From Peltaster fructicola (lineage: Eukaryota > Ascomycota > Dothideomycetes): a stretch of DNA of 64,000 nucleotides. The stretch's first letter is position 1. Each line of letters opens with the position of its first letter. Positions 53,553 to 61,384 of the stretch are shown here, one piece after another. The position numbers were made by a program, and so were the translations under genes. Below the pieces are notes generated by a model, which saw nothing but the letters and a program-made list of their open reading frames with translations, was not told the DNA's origin and did no database searches. The stretch lies in the NCBI GenBank assembly GCA_001592805.2, contig CP051141.1, forward strand, positions 2,852,001-2,916,000, written 5' to 3'.

Positions 53553-56500
53553 ATGAGTGTCACTGGGTCCATCAGGATCAGCAACGCCGAGAAGGGTGTT
53601 CGCTATATCAGTCTTCTGGACAACGCACTCTGCAACGCGAACTGGGACGATGTGCCAGAGCTTACTCGCAAGATCGAGAAACACGCGCCAGGTAGAGAAT
53701 GTAAGTGCAAAGACTACACCGCCATACTCCTTAAGCTGACAAGTAAACAGGTCTCGCCATAGCTGCACGAGCCGAAGCCAAGATAGCAACCGCTGGCTCC
53801 GGCCCTGCCTCCGGCACAGCACTCAAAGAAGTCGTCGACCTTGTGCCTCAACTCGACCGAGCGATCAACAGCGCCGATGCCAGTGAAGAGGATACATACA
53901 TTGCGGCCGTGGCTCTGGCTAAGATCTACTGGGTTGGAAAGAATCACGAGGCGGCGTTGAGAGTGTTGCCAGATCGAGAGCCAACACCTACTGCGGACAG
54001 CAGCACGCCTTCGTGCTTGGGATGGCTTGAGATCTGCAATGTCAAGATCACGTACATCAGGATATCCTTGCTCACGGCGCTGGGCCGTGACCACAACATC
54101 CAGGATTGCTTCAAGCAAGCAATCAGCATATCCTCCAAAACCAGGTCACCAGAGCTGCGGAAATGGACAGAGCGGTTGCTTGCCGGTGTCTGCTTCTACT
54201 ACTCCGAGAAAGCGCTGAACTCGCCATCAACATACTCCATGGGCGAGTCCTTACGAGTCTTCTGGGCTTGGAACGAGTTCTGGAGTAGGTCGCCGACAAC
54301 TCCACCTGCTGCACAAAGAGGACAACTGCTCCGTATTGATGTTCCCCGACTAGAGGTCTGGAGACGATACTACGAGTTGTTGTCCTCGATTCTACGCTAC
54401 GGACTGATCTACAATCTCAAGGCCAAGGTCGCCGAAGAGGTGCTTACATTCCCAGACGAGCACTTCACACCAGCTCAAATCACCGAGGCGAGGCTCAACC
54501 AGAGTAGAGAACTCAAGAGGATCGAGTCGACTTACGAGACACTTCTGCTCAGCGAAACCAAGTTTCCCACCGCAACGCATAACAACACTGGAATTGAAGA
54601 GTGGGTATCACATGTCATTCGTAATTGGAAACTCATGTGTGGTCCGATGTGGTCAGATGCTGAGCTTGGAGAGGGCGGAAAAACAGCGATGGGACACACA
54701 GTTCTTGACGTTCTCTATCGAGCAGCTACCAAGACCTTCCACTCTACTACTATCCTGCGAGAGCTCTTCAACGTGCACACGATACTTGGGGAGTTTGATC
54801 TGGCCATGAACGCATTCGACAGCTATGTCGAGATCATCGGCAAGGCCAAGCTACGAGCAGCAAAGACCGGCAAGCATGAGCTGGGTTTCGATGATGACGA
54901 TCTGGCACTGCAGACTGCAGCCGATGCTGTGAAGATACTGTGTCGATATGGAGACTCCCGCCAAGCCGAGAAGGCACTCAAGATTGGCGAGGACATCCAG
55001 AAATGGCTCGATGCACAATCGCCTACACAACAGAGCGAGGTCGACAAGCACGCTGACGATAACTATGCATCATCATCCAAACCACTACCACGACCGACAG
55101 AACAAGGTGTCACGGCGAAGACGCTTGCCGCGGCGTACAGAGCCATTGGTCAGAGCAAAGCACAATGGGCGAGATACACTCCTGCCACCGAGCAGCGCGC
55201 TAGCCTACAATATCAGGCAATCGAAGAGCTGAAGCGAGCTGAGGTTCAAGACCCGGAGAGCATCGAGACAGCTTACGCTCTTGCTTTGGCTCTGGCTGAC
55301 ACCAGAGACGTTTCCGGTGCTATTGCAACTCTACGAACCATACTGGCCCTTCACCCAACAGATACACAGGAAGCAGAGGAGACTGGCGACTGGACGAAAC
55401 AGCGACAACTTGTTCCGCTGTGGCACTTGCTTGCGCTTTGTCTGACTGCAAAGGACCAGAACGATGCTGCCATGAGGATGTGCCAGGCTTCATTCGACCA
55501 ATTTGGCGACGCGACTGTCCTATTCGGTCGACCACGATCGAGTCGTGAGCCGGAGCTGCAGAACGGCCACCGAGTGCCTCATGGTCTCGTTGACCAGATG
55601 GAGTCGTTAGAAAAGGAAAGCATCATTCAGATCAAGATGACACAACTTAGCTTCGTTGAGCTCACGGACGGGCCCAACATCGCTGTCGATATGAGCGATG
55701 AGCTGCTTGGTCTCTTCACAAGACTTTTTGGCAGTCCTGAGCAGGGTCGTACGTTCGAAAAGAAAGCCTCCGTTGAGGTAGAGCCACCACCAACACAACC
55801 AAAGTCGACTCTGAGAAGCATTACCGGTAGCATCCGCATAGGCAACCGACACGGTGACAAGCTTGGACGAGGTTTAGCAGCACACACAGATGGCCGCCAG
55901 TCTGCAATGAGTCAAAGATCGACGATTACTGGAGCTCCTGGCTCTGTGATGAACGACGACGGCTTCTCAACACATAAACGTAAGCCGATATCCAGCCTCA
56001 AGAACAGATTCATCTCTCGACACAATAGGAAGGAGTCCACCGTGGACAGTGACCAAGGGCGTAACGACTTTGCATTGGAGAAGTCTTACACCAACGGCGA
56101 CTTCTCTGGCAGCAACGGCAACAGCAACAATTACAGCTACAATGAGAAGGCCGTAGCTCCAGCAATCGCCAACGCAGACCTTGGCTACAAAACAGAGCAG
56201 CCGATCGAGTTCAATCAGAACGAATCGCATGATCACTGGCCTCCACCGGCTGGGCACGAGGAGGAGCCACCACGTCAGGATGTTCGAATGCCAACGGCAC
56301 ATCCTGCAGCTGCTGGCGCACCTGAGCTCCGCTTGCCCTCTCTGCATGAAAGGCGGCACAAGATTGGTCTTTTGGTGCAGATCTGGTTGTTCATCGCGCA
56401 TCTTTACTTACGTGCTGATCAACTGGAAGAGGCATCAGGCGCCATCGTTGAGGCGTCCAAGCAGGCTGAGTCTCTTGAGGTTGAGATCGCTGCTCACGAC

Positions 56501-57161
56501 TCGTCTGCGAAGGAGTTTGCGGCTCGTGGTTGGAGCAGTGCTAAGAGCATCGATGAGCTGATGGCTGACATCTGGGCAGCTGTGAGTACACAATGGTTTG
56601 GTTACGATACATACTAACATGATATAGAATGGCGACCTGGCCGCAGCTCGCGCCTTGCCTCACAAGGCGATGGAGAACTACGAGCGTGCACTTGCCCTTT
56701 ACCCGAACCACGCCAGCAGTATCATCGATCTCGCGGACCTTCTGATGGACATCTACGAGGAGAAGATTCCTGCAGAGGATTCAAAACCACTCATACCACC
56801 ACTCACAGCCACCGCAGGCTCACTTATCAACATTGACGGACAAATAGCACCTCCTGAGACGAACGCAGCATTCAATCCTTCGGCTGCGATTCCACAACCA
56901 AGGGCATTCGACAAGGACCCAAGCCCAGCAGCGCTGAACCGTCTCGCAGCTCGAGACAGGGCATACATGCTCCTGTCGGCTCTCACGCGCCAAGGTACCG
57001 GCTGGGACAACCCTGAGGCTTGGTACACTCTAGCTCGCGCTCATGAGCTCAGCAAGCAGGTCTCCAAAGCCAAGCAGGCGTTATGGTGGGTTGTTGAGCT
57101 TGAGGACAACAAGCCCATGCGTAGCTGGCGCAGCATCAATGCTGCTGGCTTCACGCTTTGA
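53553..57161 (+). CDS. YPP1: Ypp1/TTC7-like TPR protein of the PI4-kinase complex
   Basis: Three exons (53553-53700, 53751-56581, 56628-57161) with introns of 50 and 46 bp give 1,170 residues; phases 1 and 0 fit, and the second intron has an ideal ACTAAC branch. The protein begins MSVTGSIRISNAEKGVRYIS and is built of helical TPR-type repeats: KIYWVGKNHEAALRVLP, a long middle array, YALALALADTRDVSGAIATL, and a terminal cluster including KAMENYERALALYPNHAS. A Ser/Asn/Gly-rich disordered stretch of about 200 residues lies between the arrays. Ypp1 anchors the PI4-kinase Stt4 at the plasma membrane together with Efr3; TTC7 is the animal counterpart. Annotation databases often call the fungal protein 'cargo-transport protein Ypp1'. 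It is head-to-head with RIX1. Confidence 0.87.
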
Positions 57162-57276: not shown

Positions 57277-59397
57277 TCAGTCCCAGCCTTGCGTTTGTCG
57301 CAAGACAACTTCCTGGTCGCCTTTGCTGATGAGCTTTCCAATGCTATAGACCTTCTCACCTGCTGCCTCTAGCACCTTGATTGCTTCTTGTGCTTTGCCC
57401 TGCTGCACGGCGATCACCATGCCCAGTCCAGTGTTCCAGGTTCGTGCGAACTCTCGATGCGTGACGCCGCCGGCTTGCTTGAGCCACTTCATGGATGCTG
57501 GGACTGGCCAGACACTAACGTCGAGCTCGGCACCCAAGTGCTTTGGGAGCATGCGTGGGATGTTGTCTTCAAGGCCACCTCCTGTGATGTGCGCCATGCC
57601 AAGCAGAAGGTCTTTCTCGACCGCCGCAAGCAATGGCTTGACATAGATTCGCGTAGGAGTGAGCAGGCTCTGTCCTACGGTCGTTGACGCATCCCATGGT
57701 GCTTTGTCCTCGAACGACAGCCCCTTGCGCTCGATAATCTTGCGGACGAGTGAGAAACCGTTCGAGTGCACACCGCTGCTACCAAGACCGAGGAGCACAT
57801 CGCCCTCCGTCATGCTAGCCTTGTCAGGCAGGACCTTGCGACCTTTCTTGATAGCACCAGTAGCAGCGCCTGCAGCGTCGAACTCCTTGTCCTGGTACAT
57901 GCCTGGCATCTCTGCTGTCTCACCACCGACTAGAGCACATCCCGACTCTATACAACCCCTGGCGACACCTTCTACGAATCGTGCAGCGTCCGCAACATCT
58001 AATTTCGAGCAGGCGTAGTAGTCCATGAATGTAAGTGGTTCGGCGCCTTGCACCACAAGGTCGTTGACGTTCATGGCGACGAGATCTATACCTACTGTGC
58101 TGAAGTCGTTCATTGCGAATGCGATCTTGAGTTTTGTGCCAACACCGTCAATGGCTTGAACCATTATAGGTGGTTCCGTGTAGCCAGCTGCTCCAAAGTC
58201 GAATGCGCCTCCGAAGCCACCAATTTCGGCATCAGCTCCCGGTCGTCTTGTCGAGCGAACAGCTGCCTTGATGGCATCGACAAAGTGGTTGCCAGAGTCG
58301 ATTGATACACCTGCGTCAGCGTATGTCATGCCAGCGGGCTGTGCTGCAGAAGTCTCTGTCACTGTGAGGCCGTCGTAAGCCGGCTCGAGCAGCTTGTACT
58401 CGCAAGTGACGTTCTCCTTCTTGAATTGCTCGATGAGGTATTGTGCGATCTTGTCAAAGTTCTGTGTCGCTAGAGCGAGAATTGTTGGGCCAGCTCCCGA
58501 GAGGCATACTCCAAGAAGTCCTGGGTGTGATGAAGGAGTGACCGAGTGCAGGATCTCAGTAAGACCTGGAATCAAGGTCTTTCTGTAAGGCTGGTGAACC
58601 TTGTCTTGCATGCCATCATAGATCAGTTCAGCATTTGGCGGACTCTGTCCGAGTGCAGTCGTGAGGAGCGCCACTCTTTGCAGATTGTAGATGACATCGT
58701 GCTTGTCAAATGTGGTTGGCAGAACACTTCGTGCTTTGGCAGTGCTGACCTCGAAGTTCGGCACTATCGCAATACACTTGATCTCTTTTGCCCAAGGGAA
58801 TCGGATGTGCTTGCCAATGTCGTAAGGCGGAATCGGAGGCGTCAGACCAGTGTCGACACCGCCTTGTGGTGCAGGAAGGACTTCTGCAAGAGGGATCTCC
58901 TTACGCTTCATGTCCTCAGGGTTGAGCTCCTTAAGATAGCTGCCAACGAAGCCACCGTATAGTGCGGCAGCCACATTGTCAGGATGTCGCTCAATCATCA
59001 AGCAGAAGTCAAGCATGCGGTCCTTTGAAAGACCAAGCTTTCCAGCAACATTGCCGAGAGCTACTCCACCAACGACTGCAGCACCAGATGATCCAAGACC
59101 TCGGCCAAGAGGAATTGGGTTCTTTATGTGCACATGTGTGCCCTCCGGGAACGCTCGTTGCTGATGACAGCGCAGTACGTAGAGTGCAGTCTGGGTGATC
59201 AGGTTTCGGTCTGGTTCGAGAGGGACGTCGTCTTTCCCTTGACCCTCGTATGTAATGCGGCAGTTGTAAGGAGCTTTGACATCAGGACCATCGTCGTAGT
59301 CGATCTGGATTTCGAGATATTCTGACAAGGCCAGTCCTATCACATCAAATCCAGGTCCGATGTTGGCCGAAGAGCAGGGCACCTTGATAGTCGTCAT
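57277..59397 (-). CDS. Homoserine kinase-AIR synthase fusion protein
   Basis: One unspliced 706-codon frame encodes two complete enzymes. Residues 1-347 are a GHMP-family homoserine kinase: KVPCSSANIGPGFDVIGLAL, PIPLGRGLGSSGAAVVGG (ATP loop), MIERHPDNVAAALYGGFVGS, and SGAGPTILALA, ending LLEPAYDGLTV as in yeast Thr1. After a linker of about ten residues, 357-706 are phosphoribosylformylglycinamidine cyclo-ligase (AIR synthase, PurM): MTYADAGVSID, EIGGFGGAFDF, DGVGTKLKIA, VGGETAEMPGMY, GLGSSGVHSNGFSLVRKI, AHITGGGLEDNIPRMLP. The first makes O-phosphohomoserine for threonine; the second makes AIR in purine synthesis. In fungi AIR synthase is usually the C-terminal half of Ade5,7. No active-site loss is visible. 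The AIR synthase part starts with its own Met codon (58327-58329). It is divergent from TRM6. Confidence 0.95.
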   Translation of the reverse strand: MTTIKVPCSSANIGPGFDVIGLALSEYLEIQIDYDDGPDVKAPYNCRITYEGQGKDDVPLEPDRNLITQTALYVLRCHQQRAFPEGTHVHIKNPIPLGRGLGSSGAAVVGGVALGNVAGKLGLSKDRMLDFCLMIERHPDNVAAALYGGFVGSYLKELNPEDMKRKEIPLAEVLPAPQGGVDTGLTPPIPPYDIGKHIRFPWAKEIKCIAIVPNFEVSTAKARSVLPTTFDKHDVIYNLQRVALLTTALGQSPPNAELIYDGMQDKVHQPYRKTLIPGLTEILHSVTPSSHPGLLGVCLSGAGPTILALATQNFDKIAQYLIEQFKKENVTCEYKLLEPAYDGLTVTETSAAQPAGMTYADAGVSIDSGNHFVDAIKAAVRSTRRPGADAEIGGFGGAFDFGAAGYTEPPIMVQAIDGVGTKLKIAFAMNDFSTVGIDLVAMNVNDLVVQGAEPLTFMDYYACSKLDVADAARFVEGVARGCIESGCALVGGETAEMPGMYQDKEFDAAGAATGAIKKGRKVLPDKASMTEGDVLLGLGSSGVHSNGFSLVRKIIERKGLSFEDKAPWDASTTVGQSLLTPTRIYVKPLLAAVEKDLLLGMAHITGGGLEDNIPRMLPKHLGAELDVSVWPVPASMKWLKQAGGVTHREFARTWNTGLGMVIAVQQGKAQEAIKVLEAAGEKVYSIGKLISKGDQEVVLRQTQGWD

Positions 59398-59667
59398 ATT
59401 GCGTATACCGTCGTAAGACCGGGCACAATCACTGCATCAAGGCAGGCAGATCGTTGCACTGTTGTGTCACCTCTCGCAGGTGTGCTCTATCTTCATCTGA
59501 TCACGTCAAAGCTCTCACTAATTTTCTGAAGAAGTCCTGCAGGGCAAAGTGGTGCAAATAAGGTTTGGCGCCATTGGCAGAGCCGCATAGCGCAACTAGC
59601 GTGCACGAAAGTGAAGTCTCGAATATGTTCGAAGACTTGCAACAATCGCTAGAATGCCAGTGGCATC
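59398..59667. promoter_or_regulatory. Shared divergent promoter of the kinase-AIR synthase fusion and TRM6
   Basis: 270 bp between start codons. A short perfect inverted repeat (CACCT-CTCGC-AGGTG) lies near 59467-59481, and an ACGTCA half-site near 59506. No Gcn4/Cpc1 TGASTCA site is present. Functional use of any of these is inference. Confidence 0.45.
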
Positions 59668-61384
59668 ATGACAGGCCACAGATGTGTTCTCCCAGACGAG
59701 CACCTGTTCCTGCGATTGCCGAACGGCTCGCTCAAAGCAGTAGAGGCAAAGCCGAATACGTAGGTACACCACTGACAGGTCACATCTCACCAGTGCTCTG
59801 TGTCATTCTCTGACTCCTGCATGGCCAAGCTGAATATGGCACAGGATCATAGAAATAAACAGGCTCGGCAATATTCCTACCTCCTACATTCTCGGCCGAC
59901 CTTATCATCACACTTTCGAGCTCCTCGAGAAGAAAGAGGGAGAACAACATTCTCGGTTGCGCCTGGTGACGCCTGTCGAGCTTGAGGCCGAGCGAGCAGC
60001 AGGCGACGCAGGCCTAGAGGAGAGCAGGAATGCCCCGACGGACTCACCTGCAGACGCCAACGGTGAAGAAATTGATCTGGTTACAGAGGAAGGCAAGGTT
60101 GTCGTGAAGAACAACCGACTGATCATCGATGATGGAAATCGACAAACGTTGACCCACGAGGAGATCGAGGCGCTGAAGAAGAGTTCAGGCGGCAGGGAAG
60201 TCGTCGAGAAGATCTTGGCGAATCACACGGCCCTGGATGAGAAGACTGCTTTTTCGAGGGCGAAATACACCTTGCGCAAGACCAGAAAGTACCTCAAACG
60301 CTTCACCTTACTGCCTATGGAGCTAGGCTTATTGATTGAATATGTCTTGGAGAAAGAGCCGCCGAGAATCATGGAACTGCGCGAAGAGTCGCTCGCGCTG
60401 GTCACGTCTTGGAGTAATGCACATTGGAACAGTCCCGATGATTTGTACGATATCGGCGGCGGTGAGCTAAGAGGTGACGGCAGATTGCTTGTCGTCGATG
60501 ATGCTGGCGGTCTCATCGTGGCTGGATTGGCTGAGCGAAAGGGCATCTTACGAGCAACGCACAACACACCAGCGATGAGCGACGCACAACCGATGGAGGT
60601 CGACGGCGAAAAGTCCACTGATACCACCGTACACAAGGACTTTCCTTTGCCAGCCAAAACGAATTCCCTTACGCTGCTGCACTCAGCGATCCAGCCCAAC
60701 GTCAGCCTGCTCAAATACTTCGGCTACGACACCAACCACCCTGACCAGAACCATCCCCTACACACTCACTTGAGATCGCTGTCATGGTTGCAGCTGCTCC
60801 ACCCGGAGGAGGATCCGTTGTATCAAGAACCAGAGACGATGACTGAGGAAGTAGTCCAGTCCTGGAAACCTGGCAAGAGAGGGACATATTACAAGAAGCG
60901 TCGACGATGGGAACGATGCAAGGCGATCAGCGATGAAGCACGCGCAGGTGGCTTTGATGGCCTGATCATTGCCACGCACATGGACCTGACAGGTCTCCTG
61001 TCTCGCACTTTGCCGTTGCTGAGAGGAGGCGCTCAGGTCGTCATCTACTCGCCAAATGTCGAGCCTCTGGCCAAGGTTGTGGACTTGTACTCGAAAGACC
61101 GACGAGCCGCATACAATGCTTTGCGCGCACAAGACCCTGATAGCGACCCGCCAGTCGAGGACTTCCCTCTCGACCCGAGACTGCTGCTGGCGCCGACGCT
61201 GCAGACCAGCAGGGTACGGGAGTATCAGGTGCTGCCAGGTCGCACGCATCCTCTGATGACCAGCAGAGGAGGCAGCGAAGGCTATGTCTTGACAGCAAGA
61301 CGGGTACTACCTCTAGCAGGCAACGTCGAGGCGCGAGGCCACTTTGGCAGGAAACGTAAAGCCGGTGCAGCTGTATCAGCATGA
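59668..61384 (+). CDS. TRM6: tRNA m1A58 methyltransferase non-catalytic subunit Trm6
   Basis: Two exons (59668-59759 and 59845-61384) with an 85-bp intron encode 543 residues. Exon 1 (MTGHRCVLPDEHLFLRLPNG) is needed to complete the N-terminal beta domain; across the junction the reading KPNTIIEINRLGNIPTSYIL matches the family. Further signatures are LGRPYHHTFELLEK, RQTLTHEEIEALKKSSGG, TAFSRAKYTLRKTRKYLKRF and, in the C-terminal Rossmann-like half, GFDGLIIATHMD and GGAQVVIYSPNVEPL. No SAM-binding motif is present, as expected for the non-catalytic partner. Trm6 (Gcd10 in yeast) binds tRNA and pairs with Trm61 to form m1A58 in the nucleus. The tail GRKRKAGAAVSA is basic. A charged insertion of about 60 residues sits mid-protein. 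Confidence 0.92.

Follow-up and report, generated by a model that had tools for sequence, protein, structure and literature searches.

The locus analysed here raises the question of why an enzyme of threonine synthesis and an enzyme of purine synthesis are encoded in a single reading frame, and of where the second enzyme was taken from. Homoserine kinase (HSK) turns homoserine and ATP into O-phosphohomoserine in the threonine branch, and AIR synthase (AIRS) turns FGAM and ATP into AIR in purine synthesis. In the raw sequence of the window (the whole stretch of 64,000 nucleotides of the Peltaster fructicola genome that was analysed), the minus strand has an ATG-started frame of 706 codons between 59397 and 57277, uninterrupted by stops and with no need of an intron. 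The gene (57277..59397, minus strand) is accordingly a single exon of 706 amino acids plus stop. The HSK part, of the GHMP kinase family, occupies residues 1-348 (58354..59397, minus strand) and is matched at residues 3-348 by the NCBIfam model TIGR00191 (thrB) with 339 bits against a cut-off of 168.25, over positions 2-303 of a profile of 304, i.e., at full length. The AIRS part occupies residues 357-706 (57280..58329, minus strand) and is likewise matched at full length by TIGR00878 (purM) at residues 357-690 (405 bits, cut-off 236.35, profile positions 1-330 of 332). Pfam placed GHMP_kinases_N at 65-149, GHMP_kinases_C at 257-326, AIRS at 412-515, and AIRS_C at 531-698, and no further Pfam domain was found in the protein at an E-value of 0.001. 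The claim of the initial annotation that a complete HSK is followed in the same frame by a complete AIRS is thus borne out by both sets of models and by the single ORF. The linker, which had been put at about ten residues, is indeed short, and the gap between the thrB and purM models gives it eight residues (349-356; 58330..58353, minus strand). An in-frame methionine is the first residue of the AIRS part (residue 357; 58327-58329, minus strand).

The structure matches to the two halves carry the names homoserine kinase and AIR synthase (or phosphoribosylformylglycinamidine cyclo-ligase), with the exception of one weak match, a hydrogenase maturation factor. The upstream neighbour of the fusion gene is a gene of the Gcd10p family (59957-61384, plus strand), divergent from it, and the other neighbour is a TPR-repeat protein (53843-57161, plus strand), the second exon of which perhaps begins at about 56630.

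Distribution of the fusion and of its separate counterparts

We searched for relatives of the fusion protein and examined the best 120 of 5144 matches, one row of which is the protein of the window itself. The remaining 119 are 675-836 aa long, share 75-82% identity with it, and all carry PF00288, PF00586, and PF02769, so the single proteins with GHMP kinase plus AIRS that the initial annotation proposed to look for in other proteomes do exist. These 119 relatives of the same architecture rule out an assembly error or chance at the junction and, with a frame that is continuous in the raw sequence as well as in all of them, the prospect that the junction is an assembly or gene-model artefact is next to nil. 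The listed fusions come from genomes and metagenomes of several origins, many rows being from the same few genera, and those with names span 23 genera by our own count (e.g., Zymoseptoria, Hortaea, Baudoinia, Friedmanniomyces, Pseudocercospora, Dothistroma, Polychaeton, Aureobasidium, Delphinella, and Myriangium), several of which are known as pathogens of plants or as extremophiles. Four genera were looked up and belong to four orders of the subclass Dothideomycetidae: Myriangium to the Myriangiales, Aureobasidium to the Dothideales, Polychaeton to the Capnodiales, and Zymoseptoria to the Mycosphaerellales; the remaining named genera presumably belong to this subclass too. Judging from these proteins, the fusion is not peculiar to the P. 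fructicola genome and is widely shared in the Dothideomycetidae.

To see the separate counterparts in other fungi, we compiled two further lists. In the first, which covers the bifunctional Ade5,7 protein of GAR synthetase (GARS) and AIRS, the bait was our own fusion plus our own GARS, matches were scored on GARS, and the best 120 of 5833 proteins of at least about 625 aa were taken; 116 of these 120 have a full AIRS behind GARS. Going by the names in this list, the sources are Leotiomycetes, Sordariomycetes, and Eurotiomycetes, along with members of a few further classes, and the sole Dothideomycete recognised among the best 120 of 5833 is Microthyrium microscopicum (P0129). The second list, obtained with HSK alone as query and a length of about 194-614 aa (best 120 of 3911 matches), holds 117 stand-alone HSKs that are 66-73% identical to the HSK of the window, plus three pieces of fusions; no Dothideomycetes were recognised among the names of the 117. 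By length, the Ade5,7 list is blind to stand-alone GARS in other fungi and the HSK list to fusions; since both are limited by length and to the best 120 rows, they tell us what those fungi have, and not what they lack. Within that scope, the earlier statement that AIRS elsewhere sits in Ade5,7 and HSK stands alone holds for the fungi of other classes in the lists. We recognised no Pleosporales by name in the fusion, Ade5,7, or HSK list (the best 120 of each, with many nameless rows); that none turned up among the Ade5,7 rows or the stand-alone HSKs is a hint that this order has neither ancestral form.

The fusion thus shares features with two familiar proteins and differs from both. Like fungal Ade5,7 (called ADE1 in several Pezizomycotina records), it is a two-enzyme protein with a homologous AIRS of the fungal type as its C-terminal half (66% identity to Phlyctema). 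In Ade5,7, however, the N-terminal partner is GARS, whereas the fusion has homoserine kinase in that place, carries no GARS domain, and leaves GARS to a separate gene of 430 aa. Like fungal Thr1, it has a full-length HSK with the conserved columns kept, but Thr1 stands alone, mostly at about 350 aa, and the fused HSK bears a second enzyme at its C-terminus.

Conservation of the two halves

The initial annotation had reported the motifs as intact on both sides, and column counts agree with this. For HSK we used 117 of the 120 listed rows, leaving out P0241-P0243 as pieces of the fusion, and the HSK half of the window's protein keeps 117 of the 118 columns that are conserved in at least 98% of these stand-alone HSKs, the exception being Y230F. 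For AIRS we used 116 Ade5,7-list rows, four of the 120 (P0122, P0129, P0161, and P0204) lacking an AIRS match of more than 300 residues; the listing shows AIRS domains in P0204, whose match was only fragmented or too short. The AIRS half of the window's protein retains 113 of the 118 columns conserved in these rows and 75 of the 77 conserved in them and in 80 bacterial PurM, with the changes L458M and F654W. The phenylalanine at position 654 is retained in none of the 120 fusions. Among the fusions, 11 of the 118 HSK columns lie below 95%, and the N-terminal columns 12-19 are at 77-88%; we took the short listed fusions (675-691 aa) for gene models that are truncated or contain introns. Averaged over the columns of each part in the 120 fusions, that of the window included, the majority residue has a frequency of 0.861 in HSK, 0.832 in AIRS, and 0.451 in the linker columns 346-357, and the length of the linker varies as well in this set. 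As far as residues can tell, neither half has the look of a dead domain, and both are predicted to be active.

The rest of the genome

The initial annotation had suggested two readings, that AIRS was split from Ade5,7 and recaptured next to HSK, or that the fusion is a second copy. We therefore ran profile searches over the genome of P. fructicola itself (18.99 Mb in 5 contigs, six frames without introns, best candidates scored). Both purM and PF00586 matched the fusion only, and so did thrB; with the whole protein, purM, PF00586, and thrB as queries in six frames, no second AIRS or HSK copy was found. The idea of a second AIRS copy accordingly does not fit these six-frame searches, which leave the fusion protein as the sole AIRS and the sole HSK that we could identify in this genome. 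The purD profile matched a separate GARS gene on the same contig as the fusion, 2.1 Mb off (C3:831553-830211), which by our own reading has two exons and a product of 430 aa that ends in ...RRDIAHRALK; a seryl-tRNA synthetase gene lies convergent beyond the stop. As this GARS stops where Ade5,7 would continue into AIRS, an intact Ade5,7 in this genome was rejected, and the question of Ade5,7 versus a stand-alone GAR synthetase, which had been left for checking, is settled in favour of the latter. A weak purD match on contig C2 (profile positions 53-191, 42 bits) was taken for another ATP-grasp enzyme. SAICAR synthetase occupies its own frame of 318 aa. Threonine synthase appeared as two adjoining matches on C3 (profile positions 6-138 and 134-335), each below the whole-protein cut-off, and with this enzyme present the threonine branch looks ordinary.

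Ancestry of AIRS, HSK, and GARS

For the AIRS phylogeny we picked 22 of the 120 fusions, 29 of the 120 Ade5,7-list rows, and 15 of the 80 bacterial loci for a quick tree of 67 rows, of which six (L053, P0168, P0128, P0077, P0061, and P0106) were dropped for a careful tree of 61 rows. The only yeast or basidiomycete Ade5,7 in these trees is 7lvp, which we take to be a yeast enzyme. The fusions formed one clade in both trees, with a support of 99 in the quick tree and of 100/99 for 19 fusions in the careful one. In the careful tree, they join at 98/92 an Ade5,7 clade of 21 rows from Leotiomycetes, Sordariomycetes, and nameless sources, and Eurotiomycetes, Xylona, and Watsoniomyces (Lichinomycetes by look-up) lie outside this group. 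In an AU test on the 67 rows, a tree that unites the 28 Pezizomycotina Ade5,7 in a single clade and leaves the fusions outside it was not rejected (p 0.675); it scored 8.8 log units above the quick tree. Since Ade5,7 monophyly to the exclusion of the fusions is not rejected, we claim kinship and withhold the branching point: by these trees the fused AIRS is kin to the fungal Ade5,7 type, whether nested in it or sister to it.

A horizontal acquisition of the AIRS part from a bacterium is suggested at first sight by the closeness of the best bacterial PurM, from Rhizobiaceae, which is 59% identical and falls within the range of about 52-67% seen for the 29 Ade5,7-list rows used (the comparison covered the best 80 bacterial loci). 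In the careful tree, however, the fused AIRS and the Pezizomycotina Ade5,7 form one clade at 100/100, apart from the 14 alphaproteobacterial PurM, 7lvp, and P0121. A tree that sets fusions and bacteria against all else was rejected (p 0.007), in a test that was not clean since its constraint placed 7lvp and P0121 with the Ade5,7 rows as well. Bacterial origin is therefore disfavoured by the trees, and we regard it as very improbable.

The other two enzymes were placed in trees of their own. In the HSK tree (a quick tree of 57 rows, with 20 of the 120 fusions and 37 of the 117 stand-alone HSKs), the 20 fusions are one clade (99) among the Pezizomycotina HSKs. In the GARS tree (25 rows), the GARS of P. 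fructicola pairs with that of Microthyrium (P0129) with a support of 96. Taken together, the single purM match and the single thrB match (both of them the fusion), the GARS that stands alone, and the tree kinship speak for the first of the two earlier readings, i.e., that AIRS was split from Ade5,7 and recaptured.

Origin of the fusion

The account that we favour, and in which as a whole we have good confidence, is that the AIRS of an Ade5,7 split off and joined HSK, and that the product is now the sole, bifunctional copy of two independent enzymes that are locked in together. In an ancestor of the Dothideomycetidae, the AIRS half of the GARS-AIRS protein would have parted from GARS and come to follow the C-terminus of homoserine kinase in the same frame, with GARS persisting as a separate gene. 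HSK and Ade5,7 were probably chromosomal neighbours before the fusion, as they apparently are in Leotiomycetes; the region may have been duplicated, and the GARS between HSK and AIRS may then have been lost in one copy and AIRS in the other. If the two genes were neighbours in the ancestor, duplication and such complementary losses would suffice.

To look at the neighbourhood, we compared the eight organisms whose names occur in the Ade5,7 list as well as in the HSK list (of the same strain where one is given), leaving out Glarea (two different strains) along with Pseudogymnoascus and Hyaloscypha, for which names or strains disagreed. In six of the eight (Phlyctema, Venustampulla, Bisporella, Tricladium, Xylogone, and Diplocarpon), HSK and Ade5,7 lie on contigs of equal size, which in all likelihood are the same contig, and in Diplocarpon coronariae the two genes have consecutive locus tags (PZA11_002542 for HSK and PZA11_002543 for Ade5,7). 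The other two, Xylona heveae and Aspergillus uvarum, have them on different contigs. Diplocarpon and Phlyctema are Leotiomycetes by look-up, and we take Venustampulla, Bisporella, Tricladium, and Xylogone to be so as well. The equal contigs and the one pair of tags hint at an adjacency of HSK and Ade5,7 in six Leotiomycetes, which could have been the starting point of the fusion.

The residue that opens AIRS was then compared between the two kinds of protein. It is methionine in 112 of the 120 fusions (window included) and leucine in the other eight, whereas the 120 Ade5,7-list rows have leucine in 109, methionine in four, and an unrecognised residue in seven. Methionine in this place is thus found in Ade5,7 rows too, Xylona and Apiospora among them, and the letter changes six times on the tree; as a relic of a stage at which AIRS stood alone, it is weakly suggestive at most. 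The same methionine might be read as a start codon, such that two separate proteins arise by internal initiation at AIRS, or by proteolysis in the linker. We consider this improbable: besides the leucine in eight fusions, the methionine in some Ade5,7, and the six changes, further upstream AUGs would make leaky scanning unlikely, and the frame is kept across the junction in all 120 fusions.

Independent enzymes or a functional coupling

Is the fusion then of use to the cell as a fusion? To our knowledge, neither enzyme makes a product that serves the other as substrate, and for this reason no channelling is expected: the two domains would act as independent enzymes held by a short, flexible tether. 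The fusion would persist since no separate copy of HSK or AIRS remains. Two independent enzymes on one chain, kept through the loss of the separate genes, is most likely what this protein represents.

A selected coupling of threonine and purine synthesis, whether through a fixed ratio of the enzymes, the recruiting of AIRS to assemblies of the threonine pathway, or the supply of glycine, would also account for a fusion that has been retained across several orders of Dothideomycetidae. Threonine can supply glycine to purine synthesis through threonine aldolase, glycine being used there by GAR synthetase; AIRS, however, uses neither glycine nor a threonine intermediate, as far as we know. In yeast, Thr1, the threonine aldolase Gly1, and Ade5,7 each figure among the enzymes said to assemble into stationary-phase foci (matched passages of PMC6874960). 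Against such a coupling speak the linker, which is short and variable with little conservation, the lack of an extra domain, and the loss of separate copies, which explains the retention equally well. Nor does the region upstream of the gene (59301-60000) contain a complete CPC1/GCN4-type TGACTCA site, a single TGACTC lying at 59811. A coupling under selection is on this balance rather unlikely. Quite doubtful, too, is the bolder form in which the fusion is a regulatory joint, with homoserine, threonine, or the assembly state of HSK controlling AIRS so that purine output follows the supply of threonine and glycine; if it held, the splitting of Ade5,7 and the capture of its AIRS by HSK would amount to an adaptive rewiring that defines the Dothideomycetidae.

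On the favoured account of its origin, this lineage broke GARS-AIRS and put AIRS on an enzyme of an unrelated pathway; we found no other copy of either function in the P. fructicola genome, and loss of the fusion gene should yield a double auxotroph. The fusion offers a worked case of fission and recapture, perhaps among former neighbours, and allows one to ask directly whether cross-pathway fusions are functional or merely locked in. It is also a candidate lineage marker.

Relation to known proteins and related rearrangements

Fusions of metabolic enzymes are a familiar kind of event; a pairing across pathways, at the expense of GARS-AIRS and over several orders, is unusual. The initial annotation had allowed that the fusion might prove common and already described: it is common, occurring widely in Dothideomycetidae, and in open-access full text, to which our search extended (subscription papers lying outside it), we found no paper that describes the pairing of HSK with AIRS. 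The matched passages of PMC6816169, PMC10912719, PMC6874960, PMC8241756, and PMC11442984 do not contain it, and PMC2557144 had no matched passage. The protein has been deposited in public databases, where it has apparently gone unremarked. Its relatives bear there the name of one enzyme only, e.g., "homoserine kinase" or "phosphoribosylformylglycinamidine cyclo-ligase-like protein", and with such naming after one half, automatic pathway calls may miss the other enzyme.

Among multifunctional purine proteins, the trifunctional GART also contains an AIRS domain, as the matched passages of two papers state (PMC10912719, PMC6816169). It combines GARS, AIRS, and GART in one chain, all of a single pathway and without homoserine kinase; of these three, the fusion has AIRS alone. 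Closer in one respect is the Microthyrium microscopicum protein P0129, which like the P. fructicola genome shows a Dothideomycete GARS without an AIRS following it, in this case with a new partner, SAICAR synthetase. Both of its partners are purine enzymes, whereas the fusion mixes pathways. In its 732 aa, SAICAR synthetase (19-277) is followed by GARS (309-730) with little or no linker by eye, and it is either a second rearrangement of a freed GARS or a merged gene model.

Several other rows of the Ade5,7 list have unusual structures. P0121 (1464 aa, ena) has two tandem GARS, AIRS, and GART, the GARS units being near-identical by eye over most of their length, and P0122 (880 aa, jgi) has two tandem GARS, the first shortened, and then GART. 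In P0161 (Fusarium oxysporum f. sp. cubense, 1085 aa), which is 49% identical to the GARS of P. fructicola, two GARS-like units come after a PLP-dependent (PALP) domain. P0168, filed under the tree Carpinus fangiana, is an Ade5,7 that falls among the Pezizomycotina in the AIRS tree and is probably a fungal contaminant in a plant assembly.
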